Source of the DNA: Gammaproteobacteria bacterium
GTDB taxonomy: Bacteria > Pseudomonadota > Gammaproteobacteria > Poriferisulfidales > Poriferisulfidaceae
Assembly (NCBI GenBank): GCA_026706895.1
Contig: JAPOXW010000017.1
Coordinates: 1 to 47,068, forward strand
Length of the DNA stretch: 47,068 nt
Direction of reading: 5' to 3'
The position numbers and the translations under genes are program-made. The notes under the pieces are model-generated. The model was not told the origin of the DNA, did not search any database, and saw only the letters and a program-made list of their open reading frames with translations. This document shows positions 20,801 to 46,461 of this stretch, piece by piece. How positions within the stretch are numbered: position 1 is the first letter of the stretch; each line of letters starts with the position of its first letter.

Positions 20801-23800
20801 GTCGTCGTGTCTTGACGCACCAGATTCTCAAGCGCCTTGATTCCCTGCTGCGGAGTAAACCAGCGGCCGCCAAGCGCCGCGCGCCGCCGCTCGATTCGTT
20901 CCCGTTGCTCCGCCGCTTCGCCGATTTCCGACCAAGCCCCCCAAGCGATGGCCTGTCCCGGGAGACCCAACGCGCGGCGATGGCCGGCGAGTTGATCCAG
21001 AAAGGCATTGGCCGCGGCGTGATTCGCCTGGCCGGGATTGCCCATCACGCCGACCCGGCTCGAGAAGAGCACGAAAAGATCCAGGTCGCGATTCACTGTC
21101 GCGCGGTGCAGATGCCAAGCCCCCAGAATCTTTGGCCACAGCACCTTCTCGAAACTTTCCCAACTCTGGTTGGTTAGCGCGGCGTCCGACAGCACCCCCA
21201 CGCTGTGGATCACGCCGCCGAGGGACGGCAACTCCTGATCGATTCGCTCCAACATCTGGTCCACCGCAGCGGCGTCCAGCACATCCGCCAGCTCCACCTG
21301 CACCGTTATCCCGCGTTCCCTGAGTGCGTTGATCGTTTCCTCGGCCGCAGCATCCGGGTCCCGGCGCCCATTCAGCACGATGGCTCCCGCTCCCTGACCC
21401 TCGAGCCATTCGGCCACGGCGCACCCGATTCCACCCAATCCGCCAGTCACCAGATAGGTCCGATCCTGCCGCAACTGACCCCTCATGAGCGCCGGCGGCG
21501 TCAGGACGATTTTTCCGAGGTGCCGCGCCGAACGCATAAACCTCAGTGCGGCTCCTCCTTCGGCCAGTGGCCACCTGCTGTGGACGATCGGCGTCAACTT
21601 CCCCGATGAAAACTGTTCCATGACGCCATCCAGGACTCTTCCGACCCACGCCGGGTCTGTTTTTTTCAGAACGTCCAACTCCAGAATGTCATAGCCCACG
21701 TCCGGACGTACCGCCGCCATCTCGTCCTTGCTCAGAATGTCACGCCGGGCCAGCTCCACAAAACGCCCTCCCTTCGCCAGGCAGGACAAGCTGGCGTCGA
21801 TGAAGCCTTCTCCCGTCAGGCAGTTCAGCACCACGTCCACTCCCGCACCATCCGTAACTTCAAGGATCTCCTTCCCGAATGCCGTCTGGCGGCTGTCGAA
21901 CACGTGTTCCACACCCAGTGACCGGAGATAGGCCTGTTTTGGCGCGCTTGCGGTGGCGAAAACTTCCGCCCCGGCGACGTTCGCAAGCTGGATTGCCGCG
22001 AGCCCCACGCCGCCCGCACCCGCATGGATCAGAACGCGGTCCCCAGCTTCCAAGCCCGATAGTTCATAAGACAGCGCCGCCGACACGAATGCGCTCGGAA
22101 TCGTGGCAAGCGCCGACACTGAAACGCCCGGCGGGGCCTGCGCCACCAGTTCTTCCCGGGTAATCATTTCCGGCCCGAATGCCCCGAACCCCAATCCAAC
22201 CACGCGGTCTCCGGCCGAGACGGTAGAAACGTCAGAGCCCACCTCGAGAACATAGCCGCACAGCTCCCGCCCCAGGTTTCCTTCCTCGATGAAACCGAGC
22301 GAGCGGAACACGTCCCAGAAGTTGAGCCCTGTGGCCTCGACCGTAACGCGGACTTCCTTCGGCTCCAGAGTGCGCTCCGGGAGCAGCTTGATTTCCGGTT
22401 TCTCGAACACCCCGCCCGGATCTGGAGACAGCACCCAATCCGATTCTTCCGGCAGAACCAACCGCTCCGCCTCGGTGCCAAATCGAACCAAGCGCGCAAC
22501 CAAGCGGTCGCCCAAACGGTAAGCGATGTGGTTTTCCGGGTCCGGATACAGCAATTCGTTGAGAAGGTCGTTTGAGAAAGTCGCTTCTGCGGGATCCAGA
22601 TCGACCATCCTCGGTTGCAGATGCGCCGCTTCCTGGGCCACCACCTTGCCAAAACCCCAGAGCGTCGCGCCTGCGAGTGCCCCGCCGCGCTCCCGCTCCA
22701 GCACTTGCGCCCCGCGCGTAACAAACCATACGCCCTTCTCGGGTGTCACGTCGGCATCGGTCAGGCCCTGCACCAGCGCCAATGCGCTCGCACCGATTTG
22801 CTTGACGTCTTCCGCCATTTCCTCGACCGCCGACTCTGTCCCACGGCCGTCCAGCGCCACAAGATGCACCACGCCGTTGAATGGCACCTCCCGGGGCAGG
22901 CTTTCCAGCAGCGACTGCCACGATTCGCGCTGATCCATTTCCACGGCGGCCTTGAAGACCCCGGGACCACCTGCTGCCAATTGCCCGTCGTCGGACGATT
23001 CGCTTCCCGCCAATACGACCGTCTGGTTCCGTGCCGCCAACAAACCCGCAAGCTCTGTGGCCTTGTCTCCGTCGGATGCTGTCAGCACCCATACGCCCGG
23101 AGGCTCCGCCACTTCTACGGGACCCCGTGCGACGATCACGCCCTTGTCCGGCATCTTGGCTTCATCGGACTCGTCCACTCCAAGAACTTCCACTTCTCCG
23201 AAGCCCGAGTTGCCAAGCGCTTGACGCCACACCGCGGGGCTCGCGAGGGCGTGGTGGGGACGGTAGTCGTCGGCAAATCGCCACCAACCGTCCAACTGTC
23301 CGAAAGTCAGATCCATCCAGCCTTGGCCGTGGAGATTCTCAAGCGCGATCAACTGTCCCGATGGAGCAAGAAGATCCCGGCAGTGCCCCAATGTCTCGTC
23401 AAGATGGCGCGTCGCGTGAAGCACATTGGATGCAATCAGCAAGTCATAGCCATGGGAGTTGAAACCTTGATCGATGGGGTCTTTTTCGATGTCCAGCGGC
23501 CGGTATTCGATGCAGCCGCCGGCATCCCCGAAGCGTCCCTCCGCTTCCGCGAAGAAGCCTGCCGAAATGTCCGTGTACGTGTAGTCGAACCGTCCCTGCG
23601 GAAGCTCCGGGAGGACGGATGCAGTCGCCGATCCTGTGCCTGCACCGACTTCGATGACCTTGAGGCGCCGCCCCTCGGGCAATGCGGCCACCAGCATCCG
23701 AACCGCGTCGGCCAGCAACTGGTTTGCGGCACGTGCGACCGGTGCCTTCAGGTACAGATCCGCCGCAGTCGGCTCTCCGCTGCTGAACAGGAGCGTCAGC

Positions 23801-26800
23801 GGGTCCTCTTGCCCGCGCAGCACTTCGGTCAAGGCGCCGCCGGACCGGCGGAACAACCCGATCTCGGTCGAGCCGTGAGGATAGAGTTCGGCCATCCGGG
23901 TATGGAATTCCTCGGGATTGTCCGGCAGTTCGTCCGGCAGTGGATCTTCTGATCCCAACACGACGGTGAAACCCTCCTCCGTCTCCTCCAACACTCCCGA
24001 TTTGGCAAGCATTTCGAACAGCCGGCGGAACAAGCGCTTGTGATCCTCGATAACCCCCAAGCGTTGCCGCAGCTCATCGGGGTCTACGGTTGTGCCCACC
24101 TCGCGCTGCCAACCCAGCTTCTCCAGGTTAGTGAGCGCATAGGATCGCGACCACTGCTCCAGATCCATTAGCAGGGAACTCCTGTCCTCCGGCTTGACCC
24201 CTGCAGCTGCCACATACTCGGAGAACAATCCCGTGCGAGCCGCGACAGAAGACGGATCCGGGAAGAAGTCGGCAGGAGTTATTCCCTGTGCGAGGGCACA
24301 GTCGCGCCAGACAACCTCGTACAGCAGATCCTTTACTCCCTCGACCGCCGACAACAGCGCCGCCCGCGTCGCCCGCTTCACCGTGTACCCGCTCAACCCG
24401 CCAAGCAAGACCCCATCCGGATCGTAAATACGCAATTCCCCGCTCAGGACCTCCGGCGCCTGGCCCGTTTTCTCTTCCGATTGTCCGGGAGCCTCATTGA
24501 TGCGCACGTGGCAAAGCACCCGGTCCGGCAGTCGCTTCGCCAGCCACAGTCGCTCCCAGCCGAACGGCAGGTACGTCGCCTCCCCCTCGGCGCCCGTCAT
24601 GTTTCGTGCCACGCCCACGACCTGGAAGCAGCCGTCCAGCACAAGCGGGTGGACATCCAATTCGTTCCGGCCTAGAGATTCCGGCAAACGCACTTCTCCC
24701 AGGGCTTCACCCGGCCCGGACCATACCTTCCCCAACGTGCGGAAGAATGGGCCGAGGTCGATCCCGGTCGCCGACTTGGCGCGGTAGTAGGCCGACACGT
24801 CGGCCGGCGACAGGTCGGACTTCAGTTTTTCGACATCGATCCGCGCGCTGTCTTCCGGCATGGAGGTGCCCGGCGACACGCGGCCCTCGATGTGCTTGAC
24901 CCAACCTTCTTCGTTTCCCTTGCTGAATATCCGGACACGCTGCGATGGCGCCTGTTCGGGGGCATCGAGCACAACCTGAACTTTTCGGCCATTCTCTTCC
25001 TCCCCTTCCCCGGCCCCCTCGTCCGAAAAGATCAACGGGTTGTGCAACTGCAGGTCTTCCACCACCATCGGCCGGCCGCCTTCGGCAAGAGAAGCCGATG
25101 CCGCCATGGCGCCATAAAGCGCGCCCGGTGCGATGAGTCGGCCGAATACCCGATGGTCGCTCAGCCATGTCGGATCCGAGGGGAAGATCTCGGTCTCGAA
25201 CGTGATCTCGCCGTTGGCGGATTCATGCCGAACGCCCAGCAAGGGGTGACCCTCGGCCAAGTGCCGTCGCTTCGAGGCCTCGACCCAGTGGCGTTCGCGC
25301 TGGAACGGATAGCCCGGCAATGAAATTCGTCGCCGCGTTTCGCCCGCGAAAAGCCCCGGGAAATGAATCGGCAGTCCTGCCTGATAGGCTTCTGCGACTG
25401 CCTCTGCAAAATCGCTGCCGCTTCCGGATGCCTTGCCGTTGCCGGATGGCGGGCGCAGGCTCGGCAGTACTGCGGGAGCCTGTGCGGATTCGGGCCAAGC
25501 CGCAGCTGCCATGGGGGCCAACACGGAGCGTGGGCCGATCTCCAGCACCAGATCCACCCCGAGTTCCGCCAATGTCTCGGCACCGCGAGCGAATGCCACC
25601 GGCTCCCGAGCATGCCTTCTCCAATAAGCCCCGTCCAGCAGTTCGTCAGGCCCGACTGCTTGGCCCGTCAGGTTGCTGACCACGGTCAGGGAGGGAGGCT
25701 TGATGGTGATGCCCTCCAGAGACGCTTCCAGCGCATCCAGAGCCGGCTTCACCAAGGCGCTGTGGAACGCCCGGGCCGTATTCAGCCGCTTGACCCGGAT
25801 CTCCTCCGATTCGAGGTGTTTCGAGATGGCTTCAATTTCCTCGATCGGGCCGCTGATCACCTGATGGGTTCCGTTATACCCCGAAACGCTCAGCCTAGCG
25901 TCGGATGACGATGCATTGAACGCCTCGATTTCCGATGTCACCTGCTCCGCTGGCGCGAAAACTGCGGCCATGGCGCCCGGTTCGGTTCCCGACAGCAGAG
26001 CGCCCCGGGTCGCGGCAAACCGCATCCCGTCCTCGAGACTGAACACTCCTGCCGCCTGTGCCGCCGCCAGTTCCCCGACGCTGTGCCCCACGACCACACT
26101 GGGCCTGATGCCCAAACTCGCCCATAGAGCCGTCAGCGCGCACTCCAAAGCGTAGAGAGCCGGTTGTTCCCACGCCGTGTCTTCAAGTTCACCTTCGCCC
26201 TCGTCCCGGCCGAACATCACGTCCAGCAGGGAGGTTCCCCGTTCGTCCCGGAATGCCGCCTCGCAGCGATCCAGAACCGCGCGCGCGATCGGTTCGTGTT
26301 CGTAGAGTGCTTGCCCCATGCCGGCCCACTGGCTTCCCTGCCCGGTGTAGGCAAATGCCACCTTGGCCGCCATCCCGGGTTTGATGCCGTCGTCTGCTTC
26401 AGCCAAATCTTTCAGGCGTTCCCGCAGCGACTCGACATCGCGGAACACGACCCCCGCACGACAATCGAAATGACTCCGCCCCACGCCGGCGGTCCACGCC
26501 ATGTCCGACAGCAACGGTTCCATGGCAATGTTCTCCGACGATTCTTCGGCCCGGTCGTCGAGCCACGACAGGTATCGCTTCGCCAGATTCCGAAGTGCGT
26601 CTTCCGATTTACCCGACAACGGCAAAAGACGACTCTTGCGTCCACTCTTTTCCTGCTCCGGCAGCGGCAGATCCGCTACGGTCGCTGGCAGTGAGATCTC
26701 TATAGCCTTTTCGGAACCTGCAGCCCGATACCCCTCGCCAAGAGCCGGACTCGGACCGTCGTACTCTTCCACCACAATGTGGGCATTCGTTCCGGATATC

Positions 26801-28116
26801 CCGAAGGAATTCACGCCCGCCAGTCGCGGCCGCCCGCGATGGCGTGGCCAGTCCGTCGTGGACGAGGTGATCTGCAGCGGCAGATGATCCCAGTCGATGC
26901 CCGGGTGGGGATCCTGGAAGTGCAGGTGTTTCGGGATGACGCCTCGCTCCACCGCCAACACTGCCTTGATTAGTCCGGCAACCCCGGCAGCAGACTCCAG
27001 GTGACCGACGTTGGTTTTTACGGAACCGACCAGAAGCGGGTGATCGGCCTCGCGATCCTTCCCGTAGACAGAAGCCACCGCATTGATCTCGATGGGGTCG
27101 CCTACCGTCGTTCCGGTTCCGTGCGCCTCCAGGTAATCCACGTCCGACGCAGGGATGCCCGCCTGCGACAGTGCCGTCTCAATCACCTGTTCCAATGCGG
27201 GCGTATTCGGAACCGTCAGTCCGACGCTGGCCCCGCCGTGATTCACTGCCGAACTTCGGATGACGGCCCAGATGCGATCGCCATCCGCTTCCGCCTCGCT
27301 CAATCGTTTCAGAATCACGACCCCGCAGCCTTCGCCGCGTACGTAGCCGTTCGCAGATGCATCAAAAGTCTTGCACTGACCGTCGGGAGACAGCATCATT
27401 GCGTCCGCACGCAGTTCGTATACGCGGCCGTTCAAGAGAGCCTGCACGCCGCCGGCAATGGCCAGGTCCGCCTTGCCCTGCTGCAAATCAACCACTGCAT
27501 CGTGGACCGAGACCAGAGACGATGCGCAAGCGGCATCCACGGCCTTCGCCGGCCCCATGAGGCCCAATACAAAAGAGACCCGCCCGCTGGCGCCATTCAG
27601 GTTGGTGCCGCTGAGGGCATAGAGGCATCCGGCCGCCTCGGTCGGTTTGGTCGTGTCCAGAACCAGCATCCGATATTCGTCATTGCTGATTCCGGTGTAG
27701 ACGCCGGTCTGGCCGCCCTTGAGCCGGTCCGGGTCGATCCCCGCATCCTCAAGCGCCTGCCAGCTCGTCTCCAGCATCATGCGCTGCTGCGGATCCATCA
27801 ACTGTGCTTCTGCCGGTGAAATCCGGAAGAACGAGGCATCGAACTGGTCGATATCGGCAACGAAGGACCCGAAGCGGCAGGCTTCGTTCGGGACCACGCC
27901 GCCAGGGAAAAGTTCTCCCATGCGTTCGGCACCTGCGCCAGAGATTCCCTCGCTGATCGAGTTCCCGCCGCTTTCGAGCAGGCGCCAGAAAGACGGGATA
28001 TCCGGCGCGCCGGGGAATCGGCAGGCCATGCCTATGACCGCTATGGGCGGATCACCCGCAACGTGCTTCGATTCCTGAGGGTCAGGGGGAGCAGAAGATT
28101 TGCCCGGCTTTGCCAT
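17809..28116 (-). CDS. Type I polyketide synthase, KS-AT-DH-MT-ER-KR-ACP-KS-AT*
   Basis: Domains by residue: KS1 23-450 (Cys197, His332, His372); AT1 585-890 (GHSVGE, Ser679; RAFH, so malonyl-type); DH 955-1245 (His988 in HRVFGRLIAP, Asp1161); C-methyltransferase 1454-1640 (VIEVGAGTGSA); structural KR half 1665-1890; ER 1900-2206 (HAGAGGVGLA); KR 2219-2400 (GGLGGIG; His2366 where the catalytic Tyr usually lies); ACP 2490-2570 (Ser2529); KS2 2597-3020 (Cys2762, His2897, His2937); AT2 3155-3350, degenerate (GHALGE, Ala3248; about 86 residues missing). There is no final ACP or thioesterase. The predicted product is a reduced, alpha-methylated acyl chain. GAGG precedes the ATG. A free ACP and a hydrolase are divergent neighbours. 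The product is unknown. Confidence 0.95.
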   Translation of the reverse strand: MAKPGKSSAPPDPQESKHVAGDPPIAVIGMACRFPGAPDIPSFWRLLESGGNSISEGISGAGAERMGELFPGGVVPNEACRFGSFVADIDQFDASFFRISPAEAQLMDPQQRMMLETSWQALEDAGIDPDRLKGGQTGVYTGISNDEYRMLVLDTTKPTEAAGCLYALSGTNLNGASGRVSFVLGLMGPAKAVDAACASSLVSVHDAVVDLQQGKADLAIAGGVQALLNGRVYELRADAMMLSPDGQCKTFDASANGYVRGEGCGVVILKRLSEAEADGDRIWAVIRSSAVNHGGASVGLTVPNTPALEQVIETALSQAGIPASDVDYLEAHGTGTTVGDPIEINAVASVYGKDREADHPLLVGSVKTNVGHLESAAGVAGLIKAVLAVERGVIPKHLHFQDPHPGIDWDHLPLQITSSTTDWPRHRGRPRLAGVNSFGISGTNAHIVVEEYDGPSPALGEGYRAAGSEKAIEISLPATVADLPLPEQEKSGRKSRLLPLSGKSEDALRNLAKRYLSWLDDRAEESSENIAMEPLLSDMAWTAGVGRSHFDCRAGVVFRDVESLRERLKDLAEADDGIKPGMAAKVAFAYTGQGSQWAGMGQALYEHEPIARAVLDRCEAAFRDERGTSLLDVMFGRDEGEGELEDTAWEQPALYALECALTALWASLGIRPSVVVGHSVGELAAAQAAGVFSLEDGMRFAATRGALLSGTEPGAMAAVFAPAEQVTSEIEAFNASSSDARLSVSGYNGTHQVISGPIEEIEAISKHLESEEIRVKRLNTARAFHSALVKPALDALEASLEGITIKPPSLTVVSNLTGQAVGPDELLDGAYWRRHAREPVAFARGAETLAELGVDLVLEIGPRSVLAPMAAAAWPESAQAPAVLPSLRPPSGNGKASGSGSDFAEAVAEAYQAGLPIHFPGLFAGETRRRISLPGYPFQRERHWVEASKRRHLAEGHPLLGVRHESANGEITFETEIFPSDPTWLSDHRVFGRLIAPGALYGAMAASASLAEGGRPMVVEDLQLHNPLIFSDEGAGEGEEENGRKVQVVLDAPEQAPSQRVRIFSKGNEEGWVKHIEGRVSPGTSMPEDSARIDVEKLKSDLSPADVSAYYRAKSATGIDLGPFFRTLGKVWSGPGEALGEVRLPESLGRNELDVHPLVLDGCFQVVGVARNMTGAEGEATYLPFGWERLWLAKRLPDRVLCHVRINEAPGQSEEKTGQAPEVLSGELRIYDPDGVLLGGLSGYTVKRATRAALLSAVEGVKDLLYEVVWRDCALAQGITPADFFPDPSSVAARTGLFSEYVAAAGVKPEDRSSLLMDLEQWSRSYALTNLEKLGWQREVGTTVDPDELRQRLGVIEDHKRLFRRLFEMLAKSGVLEETEEGFTVVLGSEDPLPDELPDNPEEFHTRMAELYPHGSTEIGLFRRSGGALTEVLRGQEDPLTLLFSSGEPTAADLYLKAPVARAANQLLADAVRMLVAALPEGRRLKVIEVGAGTGSATASVLPELPQGRFDYTYTDISAGFFAEAEGRFGDAGGCIEYRPLDIEKDPIDQGFNSHGYDLLIASNVLHATRHLDETLGHCRDLLAPSGQLIALENLHGQGWMDLTFGQLDGWWRFADDYRPHHALASPAVWRQALGNSGFGEVEVLGVDESDEAKMPDKGVIVARGPVEVAEPPGVWVLTASDGDKATELAGLLAARNQTVVLAGSESSDDGQLAAGGPGVFKAAVEMDQRESWQSLLESLPREVPFNGVVHLVALDGRGTESAVEEMAEDVKQIGASALALVQGLTDADVTPEKGVWFVTRGAQVLERERGGALAGATLWGFGKVVAQEAAHLQPRMVDLDPAEATFSNDLLNELLYPDPENHIAYRLGDRLVARLVRFGTEAERLVLPEESDWVLSPDPGGVFEKPEIKLLPERTLEPKEVRVTVEATGLNFWDVFRSLGFIEEGNLGRELCGYVLEVGSDVSTVSAGDRVVGLGFGAFGPEMITREELVAQAPPGVSVSALATIPSAFVSAALSYELSGLEAGDRVLIHAGAGGVGLAAIQLANVAGAEVFATASAPKQAYLRSLGVEHVFDSRQTAFGKEILEVTDGAGVDVVLNCLTGEGFIDASLSCLAKGGRFVELARRDILSKDEMAAVRPDVGYDILELDVLKKTDPAWVGRVLDGVMEQFSSGKLTPIVHSRWPLAEGGAALRFMRSARHLGKIVLTPPALMRGQLRQDRTYLVTGGLGGIGCAVAEWLEGQGAGAIVLNGRRDPDAAAEETINALRERGITVQVELADVLDAAAVDQMLERIDQELPSLGGVIHSVGVLSDAALTNQSWESFEKVLWPKILGAWHLHRATVNRDLDLFVLFSSRVGVMGNPGQANHAAANAFLDQLAGHRRALGLPGQAIAWGAWSEIGEAAEQRERIERRRAALGGRWFTPQQGIKALENLVRQDTTTSVVMAMDWTVFEEATGTRPPLLEDLLSVASDNEAEAAAPSGDLLSQLRGAPAAAHEGLLVSFLQQEVQAVLRLPSAPAPTVGFFDLGMDSLMAVELRNRLNRAFSEEYTASNTVVFDYPDITTLAGHLAEEVGDVGSAPAPQAQPEPEPQPVEQREDDSIAIVGMACRFPGAPDLPSFWRVLESGENMVTDGRQDVDFWGDLGEDFRAKYAAYCRGGFVEGLDKFDARFFGIRPIEARTMDPRQRMLLETSWQALEDAGMDPDLLKGSQTGVYVGLGGSEYRDLVAALGEEDNYIGTAGSVAAGRISYALGFMGPAIPLDMTCASSLVAVHQAAASLQRGEVDLALAGGANVVLSPAVTKFMADFGMLSTSGGCKVFDTAADGFVRGEGCGIVVLKRLSKAEADGDRIWGVIRGSAVNQNGASAGISAPSGTAQEQVLGEALAQTGIPPSEVDYLEAHGTGSELGDPIEVRAAAAVYGEGREADRPLLIGSVKPNIGHLEWAAGVSALIKVVLAMQRGKIPGQLHFQNPSPQVDWDQLPIRVTSETTDWPLDPGRPPRAGVSAFGLSGTNAHVIVEGYDAPQSGPSKSNGMSVPKGAEQTVDISLPESVADSLPAAGEFDPRAARILPLSGKSHAALEELAGEYRTWLGDHAEELSEEGEDPDRLLADMAWTAGIGRSHFTHRAGVVFSDAGSLRDGLEALVEAGEGSEPRMAAKAAFVYTGQDSQWVGMGEALYRSEPVIRAVLDQCDAWLQEEREVSLLDVMFGRADSKRSLDDPAWAQPAIYALECALTAWWLSMGVRPSAVIGHALGEVAAAQAAGVLNLKDGLLFAAARGADELEAAFSDIAIAPPSITLISSTMGRTVGPDEILDATYWREQASKPVELQKCAEALSGFGIDGLVEIGPCEAFGPMLASAWPESAGDAGEPALIPSLHEPSGDEPVEDICRKFVGAVAEVYEAGLPVSFQGLFAGEARRRISLPGYPFQRRHHWIKTSGR

Positions 28117-34787: not shown

Positions 34788-34849
34788 GCCCCGCTCCCGG
34801 GCATCCCCTGATGTAGAATATTAGACGTTCAGCCTAATTGGGACTTCGG

Positions 34850-35176
34850 ATGTTATTTGGCAAGAAAAAGGATTTCACGTGCACTATCGCCAACACCGGC
34901 GAGACTTTCGAGGTGCCCGGCAAAATTAATCTGCTGCAAGCCGCCCTGAACGCCGGCATCAAATGGCCCTGCGACTGCAAGGTGGGAAGTTGCGGGACCT
35001 GCCGGTGCATTCTCAAGGAAGGCAAGGTCAAGGCGCTGAACGATTTCGCCTACGTGCTGGACGGTGACATGCTCAAGCAGGGCTATATCCTGGCTTGCCA
35101 GTCCCAGTTGAAGACCGACCTGGTCGTCGAGGTGGACTTCGATCAGGGCGCGATCGAAAACATGAAATTGACGTGA
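34850..35176 (+). CDS. Plant-type 2Fe-2S ferredoxin
   Basis: This 108-residue electron carrier has Cys43, Cys48, Cys51 and Cys83 in the CxxxxCxxC...C pattern (DCKVGSCGTCRC and ILACQSQ) for one 2Fe-2S cluster. Additional Cys41 and Cys53 flank the motif. ATG 34850 is preferred because GGGA lies seven bases before it; a TTG at 34838 would add four residues. It sits between the OlsB-like gene and bfd, suggesting an electron donor role in iron handling or lipid modification. Its partner is unknown. Confidence 0.88.
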   Translation: MLFGKKKDFTCTIANTGETFEVPGKINLLQAALNAGIKWPCDCKVGSCGTCRCILKEGKVKALNDFAYVLDGDMLKQGYILACQSQLKTDLVVEVDFDQGAIENMKLT

Positions 35177-35264
35177 TCGATGCGATTTCGTCGCTTCTCG
35201 CCAATCATTCGAAACGCCTCACCTACGATATTTCACCTAACCCGCAAGCCTGTGGGCCACGCGC

Positions 35265-35450
35265 ATGATCGTCTGTTCCTGCGTTCAAGTCAGTGATCGA
35301 GAGCTGCGCGCCGCGGTGAAAGCCACCGTCAAAGCAGGACAACCCGTGAATTTCCGTTCTGTCTACCGCCAGATGGGGAAACGCGCGCGATGCGGCAATT
35401 GTCGGCCGCTAATCACCCAGATCATCAAGCAGGCGCATACTGACGCCTGA
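35265..35450 (+). CDS. bfd: Bacterioferritin-associated ferredoxin
   Basis: Bfd is a small 2Fe-2S protein that binds bacterioferritin and passes electrons to its core so iron can be released. The 61-residue protein has the cluster ligands Cys4 and Cys6 (VCSC) and Cys43 and Cys46 (CGNC), spaced as in the family. It is followed 28 bases later by bfr, its expected partner, on the same strand. No clear Fur box was seen in the 88 bases before it. Confidence 0.9.
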
Positions 35451-35478
35451 TTTACGGAAAAAGCAGGAGACCGCCATC

Positions 35479-35961
35479 ATGAAAGGAAACGAGAAAGTCA
35501 TCGACTACCTGAACCGCAGCCTTGCCAGCGAATTGCGTTCCGTCAATCAATACTGGCTGCATTACCGGTTGCTGGAAGACTGGGGCTACGGCAAACTCGC
35601 CCAAAAATCGCGAGAAGAGTCCATTGGAGAAATGCGCCATGCGGACCGGTTCGTGGAGCGAATCATCTTCCTGGAAGGACACCCCAATCTGCAAACCTTG
35701 GATCCGCTGCGCATTGGCGAGAACATCCGGGAGGTCTTGGAATGCGACCTCGCCGCCGAACAAGAGGCGCATGCTCTGTACCGGGAAGGCCGTGATGTCT
35801 GCCAAGAAGTGAGCGACTATGCTTCCATGCGCCTGTTCGAAGACCTGATCGCGGATGAGGAAATGCACATCGCCTTCATCGAGACGCAATTGCAGTTGAT
35901 CGACCAGATTGGGGTCGAGCAGTACGGGTTGCTCCAAGCAGGTTCCGACGCGGACGAATAA
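35479..35961 (+). CDS. bfr: Bacterioferritin
   Basis: This protein forms a 24-subunit haem-containing shell that oxidises and stores iron. The 160-residue protein starts [28 protein letters not shown]. The ferroxidase ligands Glu18, Glu51, His54, Glu94, Glu127 and His130 can all be placed, and Met52 (GEMRHAD) is the expected haem ligand, so it is a haem-type subunit. It follows bfd in the usual arrangement. The downstream convergent gene ends 15 bases away. Confidence 0.95.
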
Positions 35962-37836: not shown

Positions 37837-38211
37837 CTACTTGCCGGTCAACTCTTCGTAGGAATCCGCATCCATCAGGGATGCACAGGGGTTAGCCTCA
37901 GTACAATTCATCTTCAGTATCCAGCCTTCTCCCTCCGGCGAATCATTGACTTGCCACGGCTCTTCCCGGAGGATCTCATTGGCTGCCACGACCTGCCCCG
38001 AAGCCGGCGCGATCAGTTCGGACGCGGTCTTTACCGATTCGATGACCCCGAAGCTTTGACCTTGAACCAGTTCGGTTCCGGGTTCAGGCAACTCCACGAA
38101 CAGGATGTCTCCCAGTTCCTCTTGTGCGTAGTGGGTCACGCCCACGGCGGCTCCGCCGGACCCGTCGGGTTCCAACCAGAGGTGATCCTGGCTGTAACAG
38201 CGCTTATCCAT
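37837..38211 (-). CDS. gcvH: Glycine cleavage H-like lipoyl protein
   Basis: This 124-residue protein is a lipoyl carrier. Lys61 in VIESVKTASEL is the lipoylation site, and VGVTHYAQEELGDILFVELP is the typical H-protein N-terminal half. The usual partners gcvT and gcvP are not in the window, so it could serve another pathway that needs bound lipoate. It lies 20 bases after the cysteine-rich unknown gene on the same strand and is the last gene of the tkt-to-gcvH run. Confidence 0.9.
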   Translation of the reverse strand: MDKRCYSQDHLWLEPDGSGGAAVGVTHYAQEELGDILFVELPEPGTELVQGQSFGVIESVKTASELIAPASGQVVAANEILREEPWQVNDSPEGEGWILKMNCTEANPCASLMDADSYEELTGK

Positions 38212-38231
38212 AGTCCCTCGTCTGTCCCGGA

Positions 38232-38627
38232 TCAGTGCCGGCTTCGCCGGGCGCGCGCACCGCGCATCGCCTCAGCCAGAATGTCATGATCCAGCATCTC
38301 AAATTTATCCGCCACATTTCCTGCCACTTCGTCGATGTCCTCGATTCTCTCGCCCGCAGGAAGATTCAGGCATTGCAGCGTTCCAGCCAAACCACCAATC
38401 TGGATCTTCAGTAACGTGCTGTGCGGCACCTGGGTGCGATCTTCGACTTCCCCGAAAGCCTCGGCGCCAACCTGTTCGAAGAATTCCTGCAATCCCTGGC
38501 AACGGTTGCAGGAGTCTGCGTCATTGCAGTCGATGCCGGCACCATCCCGGCGCGTTACCGAAATGGCCCGGGAGCAGGCATGCGTTCCGGCGACGATCAG
38601 ACGTTCGAATGGACAGTGCGTATTCAC
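38232..38627 (-). CDS. Conserved-looking cysteine-rich protein of unknown function
   Basis: I do not recognise this 131-residue protein. It has five cysteines in the first 45 residues (THCPFERL, HACSR, DCNDADSCNRC), with a CxxC pair at the end, which could bind a metal or an Fe-S cluster. The second half is acidic and helical, and the C-terminus is arginine-rich. The ATG overlaps the stop of the upstream reductase gene by four bases (ATGA), so the two are probably made together and may work as partners. gcvH follows after 20 bases. Confidence 0.65.
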   Translation of the reverse strand: MNTHCPFERLIVAGTHACSRAISVTRRDGAGIDCNDADSCNRCQGLQEFFEQVGAEAFGEVEDRTQVPHSTLLKIQIGGLAGTLQCLNLPAGERIEDIDEVAGNVADKFEMLDHDILAEAMRGARARRSRH

Positions 38628-39676
38628 GCCGTCGCCCCCAGGCAGCGGGTATACGAATTACCACGGATGACTTCGGCGTGAAACTGTTCCCGCACCAACT
38701 GGTGCTGCATGGCCAAGGCGTCAAAGCGTTCCACCACCGGCTCCGGGGCGCAGACGTACAGGTCCATCCCGGACAGGTCCGGATGATCCTCCATGACGCG
38801 CCTCAGCATGGTCTCCACCTTTTCCATGCCGGACAACTCATCTTTCGCCCACTCACTGAACGATTCCTCGATCACCAAGGGCGTGTAGCTCAGTTCGTCG
38901 AGCGCATCCGCCCAGGAACGGCACAGGTTGTGCATGTACAGGTCTTCCTTTCCGCAGCAGATTCGGTACAAGTGCAAAGGCTGCTCTGATTCGCGCGCAG
39001 TGAGGTGTTCAAGCATGCTCTTGATGGCCGCAAATCCAGTGTCGAACGCCACGAACAGGGCCGGACGAGTGGAACTGTCATCAAACGCAAACCGACCCCC
39101 AGGCGCTTCGACCGTCACAATCTGTCCAGGACGCAGGGACTCGAACGCACTGTCGGAGAAATCGTCATCCGGCAGGCGCCGAATGTGGAAATCGACATGT
39201 CGTTCGTCGCAGGGGCAACTGGCAATCGCACTGTCGCTCACCGCGCCGTTCTCCAGCGTCAGGGTCGCATACTGGCCTGCCATGAAGCGAAGCCGTTGCG
39301 AGCGGGGTACCCGCAATTTCAGCCACAGCAGGCGTTCGCCGAGCTTTTCGGCGATCTTCACTTTCGCCTGCAGGGTTTGCCAAGGAATGGATGTTGGGTC
39401 TTTTTCGAGCACAACCTCGAGTGTGAGGTCGGTCTGCGCGCCGTTGCTGCACATCAGGAAATCGCCATGCGCCCGCTCGGCTTGGGTGAACACGAAGTCG
39501 TGATGGCGGGTGGGCTTGAGTTCGCCCTCTATCAGCCGGGCACGGCACAGCCCGCAATTCCCGGCGCTGCATCCGTACGGAAGGCCGACACCCTCGCGGA
39601 TGGCGGCCTCAAGCAGGGTTTCGTTCCCCTGGATTTCGAACGAGCGGTCGGCGTTGCGGAGCCGGACGATCGCCAT
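38624..39676 (-). CDS. 2Fe-2S ferredoxin-reductase-like protein with altered FAD site
   Basis: The 350-residue protein joins a 2Fe-2S ferredoxin domain (Cys36, Cys41, Cys44, Cys76) to a flavin/NAD reductase module. In the FAD site the usual RxYS reads SDSAIAS (147-153), so the arginine and tyrosine that hold the flavin are missing. The nucleotide part keeps a TGFAAIKS stretch but begins AFD rather than GGG. This suggests weakened flavin binding or a different acceptor. It lies 9 bases after fba and overlaps the cysteine-rich gene. The electron partner is unknown. Confidence 0.75.
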   Translation of the reverse strand: MAIVRLRNADRSFEIQGNETLLEAAIREGVGLPYGCSAGNCGLCRARLIEGELKPTRHHDFVFTQAERAHGDFLMCSNGAQTDLTLEVVLEKDPTSIPWQTLQAKVKIAEKLGERLLWLKLRVPRSQRLRFMAGQYATLTLENGAVSDSAIASCPCDERHVDFHIRRLPDDDFSDSAFESLRPGQIVTVEAPGGRFAFDDSSTRPALFVAFDTGFAAIKSMLEHLTARESEQPLHLYRICCGKEDLYMHNLCRSWADALDELSYTPLVIEESFSEWAKDELSGMEKVETMLRRVMEDHPDLSGMDLYVCAPEPVVERFDALAMQHQLVREQFHAEVIRGNSYTRCLGATA

Positions 39677-39685
39677 GGGACCGAA

Positions 39686-40705
39686 TCAGGCCGCTTTTTC
39701 CATCTCGACGTCGTAAGCCCCGCGTGCGGCCGCCCCGTTCAGGCGAGCACGCTTGGAGATCGCAGCTTGGCCGATTCCCCGATTGGCTTCGGCGCCTCCC
39801 CAGGATTTCATCGCCTGCTGCTGCAAGGCACGACCATAAGAAAAAGTCACCGCCCAAGGAAGATCCGGGTGCCGGTTGATCGCATTCAGGTGCGCGCTGG
39901 CCTCTTCGTCACTCTGCCCGCCGGACAGGAACGCGATTCCGGGCACTTCCGCCGGTACCGTCTTCTTCAGGCATTCCACCGTGCGGGCGGCCACCGTCTC
40001 GACATCCGCCTGCTCCGCGCACCGGTCTCCGGAAATCACCATGCTGGGCTTGAGCACGATGCCCTCAAGCCACACGCCCTGACGCGCCAACTGATCGAAG
40101 GTGACCTCCAGCGCACGGACGGTCACTTCATAACTGCGGCCAATATCGTGTTCGCCATTCATCAGGACTTCGGGTTCGACGATCGGCACTAGATCCGCTT
40201 CCTGGCACAGGGCCGCATAGCGGGCGAGGGCATGGGCATTGGATTCCAGGCAGGCTTCGCTCGGCAGACCTTCCCCGATGGTGATGACCGCCCGCCACTT
40301 GGCGAAGCGGGCGCCCAATTCGGCATACTCAACCAAGCGCTCGCGCAAGCCGTCCAAGCCTTCCGTCACCTTCTCGCCCGGATGACCCGCCAAGTCCTTG
40401 GCGCCTTTATCCACCTTGATGCCCGGCACGATGCCGATCGAGTTCAGGTGCTCCGGGAACGGCGTATCGTCCAACAATTTCTGGCGCAGGGTCTCGTCGA
40501 ACAGGATCGCGCCACCGACATGGTCGCCCAGACCCGCTGCCGTGACCAGCATGTCGCGGTAAGTGCGGCGATTTTGTTCAGTAAATTCAATGCCTAAAGC
40601 GTCAAAGCGCTTCTTGCAGGTCGGGTGGCTTTCGTCCATCGCCAAAATCCCCTTCCCGGGGGCCACCATGGCGCGCGCGGTTGCGCTGAGTGTTTCACGG
40701 TTCAT
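39686..40705 (-). CDS. fba: Class I fructose-bisphosphate aldolase
   Basis: This aldolase splits fructose 1,6-bisphosphate reversibly through a Schiff-base lysine. The 339-residue protein has GKGILAMDESHPTCKKRF near the start, WRAVITIG, and VLKPSMVISG with the Schiff-base lysine. This is the class I (metal-independent) form, also found in autotrophic gammaproteobacteria. The 59-base AT-rich spacer before its start separates it from pyk, so it may have its own promoter. The reductase gene follows 9 bases later. Confidence 0.93.
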   Translation of the reverse strand: MNRETLSATARAMVAPGKGILAMDESHPTCKKRFDALGIEFTEQNRRTYRDMLVTAAGLGDHVGGAILFDETLRQKLLDDTPFPEHLNSIGIVPGIKVDKGAKDLAGHPGEKVTEGLDGLRERLVEYAELGARFAKWRAVITIGEGLPSEACLESNAHALARYAALCQEADLVPIVEPEVLMNGEHDIGRSYEVTVRALEVTFDQLARQGVWLEGIVLKPSMVISGDRCAEQADVETVAARTVECLKKTVPAEVPGIAFLSGGQSDEEASAHLNAINRHPDLPWAVTFSYGRALQQQAMKSWGGAEANRGIGQAAISKRARLNGAAARGAYDVEMEKAA

Positions 40706-40764: not shown

Positions 40765-42246
40765 CTACTCGACCGCAACTCCCTGCGACTCAGGCATCGC
40801 CCCGGCCTCTACGATCTTCAGGGCGTTGGTGCCTCCCTGCACGCCCGCCAGATCGCCCTTGGTGATAATCACCCGATCTCCGTCTTCCACTACTCCGCTC
40901 TTCTTCAGCACGTCGACCAGATCCCGGTTGAGCTCGGCATGGTCGGTACTGATGCTGCTCAAGGTGACCGGGTACACCCCTCGGTACAGGTTAACCCGGC
41001 GGCGCGTCTCGAGGTTGCGGGAAACCGCATAGATCGGGATGCTGGAACGGAAACGCGACATCTGCCGGGGAGTGGAGCCGGATTCGGTCAAGGCGGCAAT
41101 CGCCTTGACTTCCAGATGGTTGGCGGTGAAAATCGCCGACAACGCGATCGCCTCGTCCGCATCGAACAGGTCCTCTTCTTCGTTGGCAAGATCCAAGATG
41201 TCGCCGGCGGCATTACCCTCGGAACCTACGCAGATACGGCTCATCGCGAGCACCGCCTCGACCGGGTTGTCGCCGATCGCCGTCTCTGCCGACAGCATTA
41301 CGGCGTCGGTCCCATCCAGCACGGCATTGGCGACATCGAACACTTCCGCACGGGTCGGAATGGTGCTGGTGATCATCGATTCCATCATCTGCGTCGCCGT
41401 GATCACCACCCGATTGTGTCGCCAAGCCTTTCGGATCAAACTTTTCTGTACTGCCGGCAGTTCCGGATCTCCGATCTCCACGCCCAAATCGCCACGCGCC
41501 ACCATGATTGCGTCCGAGGCCTCCAGGATCTCGTCGATGTTCTCGACCGCTTCGGCCCGCTCGATCTTCGCGATCAGGTGCGCGTTGCCGCCGGCCTCGC
41601 GCAGGAGTTCGCGTGCATAGTAGATATCGCCCCCGCTGCGCGGGTAGGACACGGCAAGATAGTCCACGCCGATTTCCGCAGCCAACTGGATATCCTGATG
41701 ATCCTTGGCGCTGATCGAAGGAGCCGACAGGCCGCCACCGGCGCGATTGACGCCCTTGGCGTCCTGCAAAACCCCTCCGGAGATGGTCTCGGTGATGATG
41801 CGCCCGGATTCCACCGCCTTGACTTGTAGAACAAGACGACCATCGTCCAGCAGCAGATTGTCGCCGACACGTATATCCTCGAACAACTCCGGGTAGGTCA
41901 GGCCGACGCTTTCTTCGGTACCGGCATCCGGCTCGAGATCCGGGTCCAAGATGAACGGGTCGCCCGGCTTGAGGGTGACCGAACCGTCACGAAAGCCGGT
42001 AATGCGGATCTTCGGTCCCTGCAAATCGCCCAGAATCGCCAAGTGGTATTTCGGTTCGGTCATCTCGCGAATCCGCTCCGCACGCTCGCGGTGCTCGTCC
42101 TGGGTGCCATGCGAGAAATTCAGGCGAACCACGTCCACGCCGGCATCGATCAAGTCGCGCAAAACTTCCGGCGAATCAGTCGCCGGCCCCAAGGTGGCGA
42201 TGATCTTGGTTCGCCGGTGGCGAAGTTCGGAGGAAGGCGCGGTCAT
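40765..42246 (-). CDS. pyk: Pyruvate kinase
   Basis: Pyk makes pyruvate and ATP from PEP. The 493-residue protein has family landmarks TKIIATLGPATDSPE, VDVVRLNFSHGTQDEH, the active-site region HLIAKIERAEAVENIDEI, MVARGDLGVEI and ATQMMESMI. The C-terminal domain has VITKGDLAGVQGGTNALKIV. The ATG overlaps the pgk stop by four bases (ATGA), linking it to the tkt-gap-pgk string. Its stop is followed by the AT-rich spacer before fba. Confidence 0.95.
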   Translation of the reverse strand: MTAPSSELRHRRTKIIATLGPATDSPEVLRDLIDAGVDVVRLNFSHGTQDEHRERAERIREMTEPKYHLAILGDLQGPKIRITGFRDGSVTLKPGDPFILDPDLEPDAGTEESVGLTYPELFEDIRVGDNLLLDDGRLVLQVKAVESGRIITETISGGVLQDAKGVNRAGGGLSAPSISAKDHQDIQLAAEIGVDYLAVSYPRSGGDIYYARELLREAGGNAHLIAKIERAEAVENIDEILEASDAIMVARGDLGVEIGDPELPAVQKSLIRKAWRHNRVVITATQMMESMITSTIPTRAEVFDVANAVLDGTDAVMLSAETAIGDNPVEAVLAMSRICVGSEGNAAGDILDLANEEEDLFDADEAIALSAIFTANHLEVKAIAALTESGSTPRQMSRFRSSIPIYAVSRNLETRRRVNLYRGVYPVTLSSISTDHAELNRDLVDVLKKSGVVEDGDRVIITKGDLAGVQGGTNALKIVEAGAMPESQGVAVE

Positions 42247-43415
42247 GAGGCCACCGTCTTGAGAATTTCAACGGCCGGGAGCGTGCGGCCCGCCGCATAC
42301 TCCAGGAATGCACCCCCGCCGGTCGACAGATAGGACATCTTGCTCTTTATCCGAAAACTCCCCACAGCGGCCAGCGTATCACCCCCGCCCGCAATAGAAA
42401 AGGCTTGCGAGTCGGCAATGGCATGTCCCAAGGCCTTCGTCCCGGCCGCAAAACGCGGATCCTCGAATACGCCCAGCGGGCCGTTCCAGATCACCGTCCG
42501 GGCCCGGGCTGCGAGCCGGCCATAGTGATCCTGGGTTTTTGGCCCTACGTCCATGATCCGCTCTCCCGAGCGCACTTCGTCCGCTTCGCGAACGACCGAC
42601 TCGTGCGAACCGGGAATCTCACAGACCACATCCTGGGGCAACGGAACGGTCGCCCGGCGCCGGGGAGAAGACTTCATCAACCGCCGCGCGAGATCCAGCT
42701 GCGCCGGCTCGTGCAGGGAATCCCCGATGTCCAGGCCTGCCGCCACCATGAACGTGTTGGCAATCCCCCCGCCGACGATCAGTTCATCGGCGATCTCGGC
42801 CAAGCGTTCCAGCACCTCGATCTTGGTCGACACCTTGGCTCCTCCGACAATCGCGACCAGCGGGCGTTCCGGTTTCTCCAGGGCACGCTGCAGCATTCTC
42901 AGTTCGCGCCTCAGCAAAGGGCCCGCGCAGACACGCGGAGCATACCGGGCCACCGCATGGGTTGAGGCATGCGCCCGATGCGCGCTGCCGAAGGCATCCA
43001 TCACGTAGAGATCACACAAGGCCGCCATGCGTCGGCCCAGATCGTCGCTGTTCCCGGTCTCCCCTTCGAGAAACCGCACGTTCTCAAGCAGGGTGACGCG
43101 GCCCGGCTTGGATTCCACGCCGTCAATCCAGTCGCGCCGGAAAACTGCCGGTTCGCCCAGCCGCTCCGACAAAGCCATCGCGACCGGTTCCAAGGAAGCG
43201 GCTGCATCGTAGCGCCCTTCCTGCGGCCGCCCCAGATGCGACATCACCAAAACACGACACCGAGCCTGCTGCAGACGGCGAAGGGTCTGGATGCTGGCGC
43301 GAATCCGTTCATCCGCCGTGATGCGGCCGGATTCTATCGGTACGTTCAAGTCGGTGCGCAACAGCACCCGGCTGCCCGGCTTGAGCTTGCCCGGCAAACC
43401 GGGAGGCATGCTCAT
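42243..43415 (-). CDS. pgk: Phosphoglycerate kinase
   Basis: Pgk moves a phosphate between 1,3-bisphosphoglycerate and ADP. The 390-residue protein has [22 protein letters not shown] at its N-terminus, VMSHLGRP, and [20 protein letters not shown]. The late [12 protein letters not shown] is the nucleotide-binding loop. ATG 43415 overlaps the gap stop by four bases, and 43409 is an alternative. A longer frame upstream to 43487 is not family-like. Confidence 0.95.
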
Positions 43416-44428
43416 GCGGAGGCGCGCATCCAAGCCGCAATGACATCCAGCATACGATTGGAAAAACCCCACTCGTTGTCGTACCACGAGAGGACCTTGA
43501 CCAGGTTGCCCGGAAGCACCTTGGTCAGCGAAGCATCAAGTGAGGACGACGCCGGGCTGTGGTTGAAGTCGATCGAAACCAAGGGATCCTCGCTGTACGC
43601 CAAAACGCCTTTCAGCGGTCCCCCGGCTGCCGCGCGCACGGCTGCGTTGACTTCTTCCGCGTTCGTCTCCCGACTGGCCACGAAGCTCAAGTCCACCACC
43701 GAAACGTTGATGGTCGGCACGCGGATGGCGAATCCGTCCAGGCGGCCGTCGAGTTCCGGCAGCACCAGGCCGACCGCCCGCGCCGCGCCGGTCGCGGTCG
43801 GAATCATCGACTGCGTGGCCGAACGGGCCCGGCGCAGGTCGCTGTGAGCCACGTCCGTCAGCACCTGGTCGTTGGTATACGAATGGATGGTGGTCATGAT
43901 GCCGGACTCGATCCCGACCGATTCCATCAGGACCTTGGCCAGGGGCGCCAAACAGTTCGTCGTGCAGGAAGCATTGGAGACCACGACGTGATCCGGGCCC
44001 AACTGGTCGTGATTGACGCCATACACCACGGTCGCATCCACGTCCTTGCCGGCCGGAGCCGAGATCAGCACCCGGGGGGCGCCTGCCTCCAGGTGGCCCC
44101 GCGACTTCTCGCGCGACGCGAAAAGCCCGGTCGACTCGATCACCACATCCACTTCCGACTCTTTCCAGGGAATGTCAGCCGGGTCACGGCAGGCGGTGAA
44201 CCGGATGCGGTCGTCTCCCACCATCATGGCGTCTCCATCAGCCTGCACACTCAGGTTGAACGGCCCATGCGCCGAGTCATAGCGAGTCAGATGTGCGCTG
44301 ACCTCCAAATCGCCGATGTCGTTGATGGCAACAATGCTGATTTCATCCTGCCGCCCGGCTTCGTACAGGGCACGCAGGATGTTGCGCCCAATGCGTCCAT
44401 AGCCGTTGATTCCCACGCGAATACTCAT
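43412..44428 (-). CDS. gap: Glyceraldehyde-3-phosphate dehydrogenase, type I
   Basis: This enzyme oxidises glyceraldehyde 3-phosphate or runs in reverse in the Calvin cycle. The 338-residue protein has the Rossmann motif [16 protein letters not shown], the active site [13 protein letters not shown] and the C-terminal [15 protein letters not shown]. The residue after the second beta strand (INDIGD) points to NAD use, although this is not decisive. It is coupled by ATGA overlaps to tkt upstream and pgk downstream. Confidence 0.95.
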
Positions 44429-46461
44429 GCTGTCACTCCCTGACCCAACATTTCCCGGGCCATCGTTGTCAAGTTTTCTACGGTAAACCCGAAGTGTTCC
44501 ATCACCCGGGCGCCTGGTGCCGAATGGCCGAATTCCTCAACCCCCAGCACGCGTCCTTGCGGCCCTATCCAGCGGTGCCACGGTGCGCTGACTCCCGCCT
44601 CGACCGCGATCCGGGCGGAAACCTCGCTCGGCAGGACTTGTTCCTGATAGCCCGGATCCTGTCGGGCAAACTGTTCCATGCAGGGCATCGACACGACCCG
44701 TGTCCGGATTCCATCCAGAGCCGCGGCACATTCGACGGCCAGCCCGACTTCGGATCCGGTGGCAAGCAAAATCAGTTCCGGCGGGCCGTCCGAATCCACC
44801 AGCACGTATCCGCCGCGCGCGGATAGCGCGACAGTCTCCGGAGTATGCTCCAGTTGCGCCACGGACTGGCGCGACAGTGCCAGCGCAGTCGGCCCGTTCC
44901 TGGGCTGCAGCGCACACTTCCAAGCGACTGCGGTCTCCACGGCGTCGGCCGGTCGCCAGACTTCGAGTCCCGGAATCAGCCTGAGGCTCGCCAGATGCTC
45001 CACCGCCTGATGGGTCGGACCGTCCTCGCCTAGGCCGATGGAATCGTGCGTCAGGACGAAAATCACCCGTTGGTGCATCAGCGCCGCCATGCGGATAGAG
45101 TTTCGGGCGTAGTCGGAGAACGTCAGGAAGGTTCCGCCATACGGGATGAACCCGCCGTGCAAGGCCAAACCGTTCATCACGGCCCCCATGCCGAACTCCC
45201 GGACCCCGTAGTAGATGTAGGTGCCGGATTCGTCCGCGCTGACCGCACGGCTGCCCTTGGGTTGGGTGTTGTTGGACCCGGTCAGATCCGCCGAGCCACC
45301 GATCAATTCCGGCAGGCTGCCGGCGATTGCATCCAGGGTGTTCCCGGAATGCTTGCGGGTCGCCGCCTTCGCGGGCTCCATCAACTGGTTCTTGATATGG
45401 GCGTCAATCGCCTCCGTGAACGCCTCCGGCAAGTCGCCTTCCAGGCGCCGGGCCAGTTCGGCTGCATCCTCCGGGCAACTGGCGGCATAGTCCTTCATGC
45501 GCGCCTGCCATTGGGATTCCATCTCCGCGCCCTGTTCCCGGGCATCCCAAGCTTCGCGGATTTCGGCCGGGACCTCAAAAGGAGGATGGAGCCAGTCCAG
45601 AGTCTCTCGCGCCCGCGCCACTTCCTCGGCACCAAGCGGAGCGCCGTGTGTGTCTGCAGTGCCCTGCTTCTGCGGTGCGCCGTAACCGATCACGGTCCGG
45701 CAGCAAAGAAACGACGGCCGGGGATCGGCCTGGGCTTCGCGAATGGCCTGATCCACCGCTTCCGGGTCATGTCCGTCGATGTCCGGGACCACATGCCAGC
45801 CATAAGCGGAAAAGCGCCCGGCCGTATCGTCGGTGAACCAGCCTTTGGTTTCGCCGTCGATCGAGATGCCGTTGTCGTCGTAGAACACGATCAGCTTGCC
45901 CAGACGGAGCGTGCCGGCCAAACTGCACGCCTCGTGCGAAACCCCTTCCATCAGGCATCCATCGCCCGCGAACACATAAGTCCGGTGGTTGACCACCTCA
46001 TGCCCGTCATGGTTGTAGCGGTCACCCAGTAGCCGTTCCGCCAGCGCCATCCCGACCGCGTTGGCCAGTCCCTGACCCAACGGGCCGGTCGTCGTTTCGA
46101 CCCCGATGCCCCGATCAAGCTCCGGGTGCCCAGGCGTGCGCGAGTGCAGTTGGCGAAAAGCCTGAAGCTCCTCCATCGCCAGCGGATACCCGGTCAGGTG
46201 CAACAGGCTGTACAGCAGCATGGAGCCGTGCCCGTTGGAGACCACGAAGCGGTCCCGGTCCGGCCAGCAGGGATTGGCGGGGTTATGCTTGAGGTGTCGA
46301 CGCCACAGGACTTCCGCGATATCCGCCATTCCCATCGGCATGCCGGGATGGCCGGAAGCGGCTTGTTCGACAGCATCCATGCTCAACGCCCGTATGGCGT
46401 TGGCCAGCGTTCGCGGTGCAGGCATCGGCCCGGAAGAAGAAGGGTTTTCAGGTGGGGTCAT
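44425..46461 (-). CDS. tkt: Transketolase
   Basis: Transketolase moves two-carbon ketol units between sugars in the pentose-phosphate and Calvin cycles, using thiamine diphosphate. The 678-residue protein has [36 protein letters not shown] (the cofactor-binding GDG...N motif) and [24 protein letters not shown]. It heads tkt-gap-pgk-pyk, each pair overlapping as ATGA, a layout common near Calvin-cycle genes. No clear ribosome binding site or promoter was found in the 88 bases before its ATG. Confidence 0.96.

Follow-up and report, generated by a model that had tools for sequence, protein, structure and literature searches.

A GcvH-type protein without recognised glycine cleavage partners behind a coupled reductase and cysteine-rich protein gene pair in Candidatus Porisulfidus: a possible repurposed lipoyl carrier

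The window analysed here, positions 1 to 47,068 of contig JAPOXW010000017.1 of assembly GCA_026706895.1, comes from a gammaproteobacterial genome (33 contigs, 98.7% complete) of the genus Candidatus Porisulfidus/Poriferisulfidus. It carries on its minus strand three consecutive genes for a [2Fe-2S] flavin-reductase-like protein, a cysteine-rich protein and a GcvH-type lipoyl carrier. These stand last in a co-directional run with the order tkt-gap-pgk-pyk-fba, reductase, cysteine-rich gene and gcvH; the reductase and cysteine-rich frames overlap by 4 bp, and a gap of 20 bp separates the cysteine-rich gene from gcvH. An earlier note on this DNA had proposed that the three genes may form an electron-transfer group linked to central carbon metabolism. 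Its observation of the genes is confirmed by our analysis, and its interpretation is partly supported. The features of the three genes are listed below (FAD, flavin adenine dinucleotide).

38624..39676, minus strand: SCPC-family [2Fe-2S] flavin-reductase-like protein, 350 residues (Fer2, FAD_binding_6 and NAD_binding_1 matches; SCPC motif)
39449..39571, minus strand: [2Fe-2S] cysteines C36, C41, C44 and C76 of the reductase (sequence; invariant in 12 of 12 rows)
39227..39238, minus strand: reductase residues 147-150, SDSA, at the site of the FAD motif RxYS (alignments including 7c3a and 5ogx)
39209..39217, minus strand: reductase residues 154-156, CPC, the family signature (32 of 32 family rows)
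38232..38627, minus strand: cysteine-rich protein, 131 residues, GTG start; member of a gammaproteobacterial family that has no name (family alignment, profile searches)
38499..38615, minus strand: family cysteines C5, C18, C34 and C43 of the cysteine-rich protein (in 11 rows, C34 is at least 90% conserved and the other three are invariant)
37837..38211, minus strand: GcvH-type lipoyl carrier, 124 residues (TIGR00527, GCV_H profile, tree)
38029..38031, minus strand: lipoyl-attachment lysine K61 of GcvH, in ESVK (alignment)

All three genes are real and under purifying selection. The reductase is present in each of the six genomes of the genus, and GcvH and a cysteine-rich gene of the window's type are present in five of them, always co-directional with the reductase and in the identical order. 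The ratio of nonsynonymous to synonymous substitution rates (dN/dS), taken over 10 genome pairs, is 0.04-0.11 for the reductase, 0.06-0.15 for the cysteine-rich gene and 0.08-0.14 for GcvH. Chance frames, or an artefact of sequence or annotation, are ruled out, since all three frames are intact in four further genomes of the genus and dN/dS is low. In the sixth genome (G005, 76% complete), the aldolase gene adjoins the reductase gene, which is followed by another frame; no GcvH was found in this genome, and the cysteine-rich family is represented by one distant copy only. From the genus names and the record label, we take these bacteria to be sulfur-oxidizing symbionts of marine sponges. Candidatus List No. 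7 equates TsSOB with Poriferisulfidus primus, Lavy et al. 2018 (PMC12451612).

The reductase matches Fer2 (E = 1.6e-11), FAD_binding_6 (8.1e-6) and NAD_binding_1 (6.9e-5) in Pfam, the latter two with scores modestly above their cut-offs (26.5 against 21.1 and 23.9 against 22, respectively). Its [2Fe-2S] motif, C-x4-C-x2-C...C, is intact (C36, C41, C44 and C76). The earlier note had remarked that the flavin motif RxYS is missing and that residues 147-153 read SDSAIAS, which is borne out by the alignments: in phmmer, residues 147-150 (SDSA) stand opposite RAYS in 7c3a and RQYS in 5ogx, the alignment to 1krh lies one residue off (R opposite D148) with no motif residue kept, and a paralogue in the window's own genome (L073) keeps RSYS. 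The nucleotide motif reads FDTGFAA instead of GGTGxAP, with TG retained and GG gone.

As judged from the alignment, this RxYS degeneracy is a trait of the whole reductase family, since SCPC occurs just after the RxYS site in all 32 family rows, the window's included, and a complete RxYS in none. The 32 rows comprise the 30 best loci, all of which read [IV][AG]SCPC when searched by a pattern that does not require the cysteines, and two further rows; partial motifs occur among them (R in 9, an aromatic residue in 12, S or T in 13). The reductase profile, A6, was built from SCPC members, and its best matches are biased toward SCPC accordingly. Two canonical rows with RSFS or RSYS, one of them the paralogue of the window's genome, are without CPC. 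Across 368 gammaproteobacterial genomes, A6 scores form one group at or above 324.6 bits (81 genes in 69 genomes), which we treat as the SCPC reductases, and a dense group at or below 308.2 bits; the sole gene inspected below the line (L056, 291.6 bits) has a canonical RSFS and no CPC. Three SCPC reductases (L048:2854-4509, L049:153-1640 and L054:1185-2768) are extended at the N-terminus by some 150 residues, a region that begins, by eye, like a helix-turn-helix regulator.

The best named relatives of the reductase are oxygenase reductases. The BenC-type reductases of benzoate and carbazole dioxygenases (1krh, 7c3a) share with it the order Fer2, FAD_binding_6, NAD_binding_1 in a near full-length alignment, but the window's protein has SDSA and CPC in place of RxYS and FDTGFAA in place of GGTGIAP, and its scores are far below the family cut-offs (143 of 430 bits, the BenC match, and 137 of 500). 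The NAD(P)H-flavin reductase core of the E. coli flavin reductase Fre and of LuxG also aligns with it (104.5 and 85.6 bits), although the window's protein has an additional [2Fe-2S] domain and lies below their cut-off. The likeness to BenC would suit an ordinary oxygenase-type reductase, in which case the pair would supply electrons to an unlinked monooxygenase and the loss of RxYS would be tolerated. Such a role is quite unlikely given the low scores and the lack of a complete RxYS throughout the family; in addition, no oxygenase was recognised in the reductase loci read by eye, where no hidden Markov model search for oxygenases was made.

The reductase and the cysteine-rich gene are coupled, in gene content and position, well beyond Ca. 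Porisulfidus, since the two families co-occur in 58 genomes and form ten adjacent pairs where about 0.15 would be expected. In the 368 genomes, the reductase occurs alone in 11, the cysteine-rich family alone in 30 and neither in 269, such that the cysteine-rich family is found in 58 of the 69 genomes with an SCPC reductase versus 30 of the 299 without one. When genomes are grouped by family label, both genes are present in 35 of the 37 labels with the reductase, and 13 labels have the cysteine-rich gene alone. The ten adjacent pairs are those, among 92 same-genome gene pairs, that lie within 2.1 kb (10 genomes and 9 family labels, the window's included); the expected number applies to pairs within 2.5 kb and assumes 3-Mb genomes. 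In the five closest pairs (G000, G062, G177, G144 and G327), 41 to 453 bp separate the matches, and the cysteine-rich genes involved have higher scores with the window's group; the G177 pair is convergent, the other four co-directional. The 4-bp overlap recurs in G062, a member of another family. A first survey of 55 relatives had found the cysteine-rich family in 15, a reductase match above 200 bits in 15 and both in 14. Overall, the two proteins are in all probability functionally linked.

The cysteine-rich protein has six cysteines. The earlier note had described it as overlapping the reductase and could not place it, and in our searches it likewise has no Pfam or NCBIfam match at E<=1. Across the family, Pfam and NCBIfam gave single-member matches only, at E 0.05 or worse, and the best match among PDB sequences has an E of 1.4. 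In 11 aligned members, C5, C18, C43, G78 and G82 are invariant, and C34, P68, H69, K74, Q76, G79 and L80 are present in at least 90%. The family comprises 107 genes in 88 of the 368 gammaproteobacterial genomes, and the window's genome has a second member on contig C25. We refer to the reductase and cysteine-rich families as undescribed in the sense that they are without a Pfam or NCBIfam model, which is not a claim on the literature.

The third gene of the window encodes a member of the H protein family of glycine cleavage. With 134.8 bits it passes the TIGR00527 equivalog cut-off (115.85), although it scores lower than six other GcvH rows (166-178). It is the only GCV_H protein above cut-off in its genome, where a second, weak match falls in an E2-type lipoyl domain. 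That gcvT and gcvP are missing, as the earlier note had it, extends to the genome as a whole, in which neither gene was found: the one GDC-P match, below cut-off, is a pyridoxal phosphate enzyme of cysteine/methionine metabolism, and the sole GCV_T match is YgfZ, so that both candidates were rejected. GcvP above cut-off is likewise absent from nine more genomes, giving none in 10, the one-contig genome G004 included, versus 10 of 14 controls.

Part of the substrate site of this GcvH is also gone. In E. coli numbering, taken from the 3a7a chain, Glu-14, Asp-68 and Tyr-70 are replaced by Leu, Glu and Ile in all five Porisulfidus GcvH rows, compared with E, D and Y in all 13 GcvH-clade rows from other genomes, which are defined by their tree clade, the GcvP and GcvT status of their genomes being no part of the definition. 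Glu-12 is Asp in the window's GcvH, and Ser-67 is retained. According to a simulation study, the aminomethyl arm of the H protein is held by Glu-12 and Glu-14, and its release involves Tyr-70, Ser-67 and an Asp given as 68 and also as 69 (PMC7733448). The lipoyl lysine, K61, is kept in all five Porisulfidus proteins, within the motif ESVKTAS. A tree built from 26 rows has a single split (100/99) with 18 GcvH rows, the Porisulfidus five among them, on one side and 8 LbpA-type rows on the other. The stem leading to the five measures 1.61 changes per column, as opposed to a median end branch of 0.3, after which dN/dS within the genus is about 0.1. A search of the literature on stand-alone, orphan or GcvH-like H proteins turned up no report of such an orphan GcvH. 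By its sequence, the window's GcvH is a lipoylable H protein under selection, with partners not found and part of its substrate site gone, and it very likely does not act in glycine cleavage.

Such a protein could be a relic left from a glycine cleavage system that has been lost, carried on the same transcript by chance and inactive with the pair. GcvH was found in none of 14 same-order genomes outside the genus, which suggests a lineage that tends toward GcvH loss, and the pair stands without GcvH at the other loci checked. However, GcvH is full length, its dN/dS is 0.08-0.14 in every one of the 10 genome pairs, and gcvH lies directly behind the pair in all five GcvH-bearing genomes of the genus. 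The lipoyl lysine is invariably kept, and the cavity residues, once changed, have been held identical in the five proteins. We regard a relic as unlikely.

The genus has the genes for lipoylation, with lipA in six of six genomes and, in all eight genomes searched, exactly one LplA/LipB-type (PF21948) protein, beside lipA. In the window's genome, an E2-type lipoyl-domain frame is also flanked by genes for a pyruvate dehydrogenase E1 and a lipoamide-dehydrogenase-type protein, which would be consistent with GcvH acting as a lipoyl relay of the kind seen in Bacillus and Staphylococcus, on which octanoyl or lipoyl groups are built before their transfer to the E2 of pyruvate dehydrogenase. For Bacillus, the relay role of GcvH is established and provides a precedent (PMC10332631, PMC6067878). 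By contrast, the lone LplA/LipB-type protein beside lipA is probably LipB, with which no relay is needed. In the eight genomes, PF21948, a family to which LipL presumably belongs, yielded no further transferase of the LipL/LipM kind, and a relay is improbable. In G004, there is a single Biotin_lipoyl match, AccB-like by guess. A second match, lying in a longer frame of the E2 type, is present in each of the five other genomes of the genus; G004 may have lost its E2 or have a divergent one, in which case GcvH could be the only lipoyl protein of that genome.

LbpA, of the sHdr sulfur-oxidation system, is another GcvH-like lipoyl carrier outside glycine cleavage (PMC10332631, PMC6067878). The eight LbpA-type rows in our alignment are all without the aminomethyl-binding Glu (V or I instead), as is the window's GcvH, and the name of the genus points to sulfur oxidation. 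Nevertheless, the split in the tree places the window's protein with the GcvH rows, and its motif is ESVKTAS, not ESGKW, for which reasons membership in LbpA was rejected. Furthermore, no hdr or sLpl/LipS gene was recognised beside gcvH, the rest of the genome not having been searched for these genes, and identity with LbpA is highly improbable. Two LbpA-type loci (L074 and L076) have, by eye, hdr- and lipS-like neighbours, one of those in L076 with the CCG domain of HdrB.

A lipoyl antioxidant relay would also employ the kept lipoyl site: dihydrolipoyl-GcvH, recharged by lipoamide dehydrogenase or by the reductase, would feed peroxide or disulfide reduction. The genome has a gene of the lipoamide dehydrogenase type; at 34838-35961, near the locus but on the opposite (plus) strand, there is a row of ferredoxin, Bfd-type [2Fe-2S] and ferritin-family genes; and glutaredoxin genes lie near two adjacent pairs elsewhere. 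Yet the ferredoxin, Bfd-type, ferritin-family and glutaredoxin genes are mere neighbours, and no peroxiredoxin or AhpD-like gene was recognised beside gcvH, leaving this relay, too, with little probability.

In other lineages, some neighbours of the reductase and cysteine-rich genes belong to sulfur or thiol families. Behind the pair in G062 and G144 there is a gene of the rhodanese family, and recurrence clustering places a further one beside the reductase in G202. In G053 the reductase is preceded by a DsrC-family gene, as is the cysteine-rich gene at two G302 sites; at one of these two sites, DsrE and a Pyr_redox_2 gene also occur within about 2 kb. In G034 and G135, which contribute two of the ten adjacent pairs, glutaredoxin lies near the cysteine-rich gene; adk is also among the neighbours of the reductase and cysteine-rich genes. 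Two of the ten adjacent pairs are thus near rhodanese, two near glutaredoxin and one near GcvH; in the remaining five, none of these was recognised or the flanks were read only in part. A connection between the pair and carriers of dithiol or sulfur is a plausible hypothesis.

On the best reading of this locus, to which we assign a probability of about 45%, GcvH is a lipoyl carrier put to a new use next to a two-gene redox module conserved in Gammaproteobacteria. The reductase would probably take electrons from NAD(P)H by way of a loosely or unusually bound flavin, or of the CPC cysteines, to the [2Fe-2S] cluster, and from there to the cysteine-rich partner. In Ca. Porisulfidus, a GcvH released from glycine cleavage would have been added behind the pair and, as the presence of the genes suggests, lipoylated by LipB and LipA. 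It would most likely serve as a mobile carrier of dithiol, or of dithiol-bound sulfur, that is reduced or oxidised by the pair, a role like that of LbpA in sHdr sulfur oxidation, arrived at independently. The sequences demonstrate the coupling of the pair, the missing RxYS, an altered GcvH without recognised partners, and the selection on the genes; from these we infer the electron flow, the contact of GcvH with the pair and the dithiol or sulfur chemistry. That GcvH works with the pair has a little less than an even chance, and dithiol or sulfur chemistry is distinctly less likely. More speculatively, and unlikely as it stands, the SCPC reductase and the cysteine-rich protein might be an undescribed gammaproteobacterial thiol-redox module, in which CPC beside the degenerate flavin site acts on dithiol or persulfide carriers such as DsrC, rhodanese or glutaredoxin, with GcvH as the carrier in Ca. 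Porisulfidus and as a second, independent LbpA-like origin.

Several points weigh against a repurposed carrier that works with a dedicated redox pair. Among 100 loci searched around these genes, GcvH joins the pair only in this genus, in three loci, and is found in none of the 97 others, so that it may merely share the pair's transcript. Of the three-gene group proposed in the earlier note, the coupling of the reductase with the cysteine-rich gene is supported (58 of 69 genomes, ten pairs within 2.1 kb), and GcvH as a general third member, present in five of six genomes of the genus, is not; co-occurrence, which that note had set as the check, is far from rare for the pair and is lacking for GcvH outside the genus. 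Sulfur genes are also infrequent: when the cysteine-rich loci of 20 genomes were read by eye, 1.5 kb on each side, rhodanese or DsrC was seen in 3 (G062, G144 and G302) and glutaredoxin in 1 (G135), with most having no sulfur gene, and rhodanese or DsrC was found at 4 of 30 reductase loci (G062, G144, G202 and G053) by recurrence clustering, which misses singletons. As for the pair, the 30 genomes with the cysteine-rich gene and no reductase, and the 11 of the reverse kind, are exceptions to it, the Fisher P of 7e-34 for co-occurrence ignores kinship, and the line that defines the SCPC reductases was placed in the gap between 324.6 and 308.2 bits after the gap was seen. The search for GcvT covered the window's own genome only, and GcvP matches below cut-off occur in 5 of the 10 genomes, of which only that in the window's genome was identified. 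Structure prediction gave an unusable reductase model (predicted local distance difference test, pLDDT, 43.7, from five close sequences), and a model of the cysteine-rich protein (pLDDT 74.1; the other four at most 63.2) had no PDB fold match better than E 1.6.

The genes upstream of the reductase, which bear on the proposed tie to central carbon metabolism, are the following.

39686..40705, minus strand: class I fructose-bisphosphate aldolase, directly upstream of the reductase (NF033379, 506 bits)
40765..42246, minus strand: pyruvate kinase (TIGR01064, 528.5 bits)
42243..43487, minus strand: phosphoglycerate kinase (aligns with the PGK part of NF010569, below the model cut-off)
43412..44428, minus strand: type I glyceraldehyde-3-phosphate dehydrogenase (TIGR01534, 419.7 bits)
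44425..46461, minus strand: transketolase, the upstream end of the co-directional run (TIGR00232, 918 bits)

The aldolase gene precedes the reductase in the sixth genome of the genus as well, and no tkt-gap-pgk-pyk-fba run was seen in the loci read from other lineages. A link to carbon metabolism would derive from operon position only, and this part of the earlier proposal is not upheld. In a scan for promoters and terminators, site numbers were not above those in shuffled sequences. Elsewhere in the window, a single open frame of 3435 residues occupies 17809-28116 on the minus strand. At other loci, a small protein starting MPYFVY adjoins a more distant cysteine-rich gene in two families (L034:3437-3673 and L035:5454-5699), and a protein of 120-146 residues with an RRRFKYGEF-like stretch lies near cysteine-rich or reductase genes in four genomes (L126:9059-9490, and also L125, L161 and L164; L146 is the same place as L125); the L034 and L126 proteins have no Pfam match.

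Taken together, the window presents a natural case of an H protein that appears to have departed from glycine cleavage, its partners not found and its substrate-holding residues gone, with the lipoyl site kept. A cysteine-rich family without a Pfam or NCBIfam model is now tied to a specific redox partner and thereby gains a functional handle. If GcvH in Ca. Porisulfidus is indeed a carrier of sulfur or dithiol, it would represent a second route to the job performed by LbpA.

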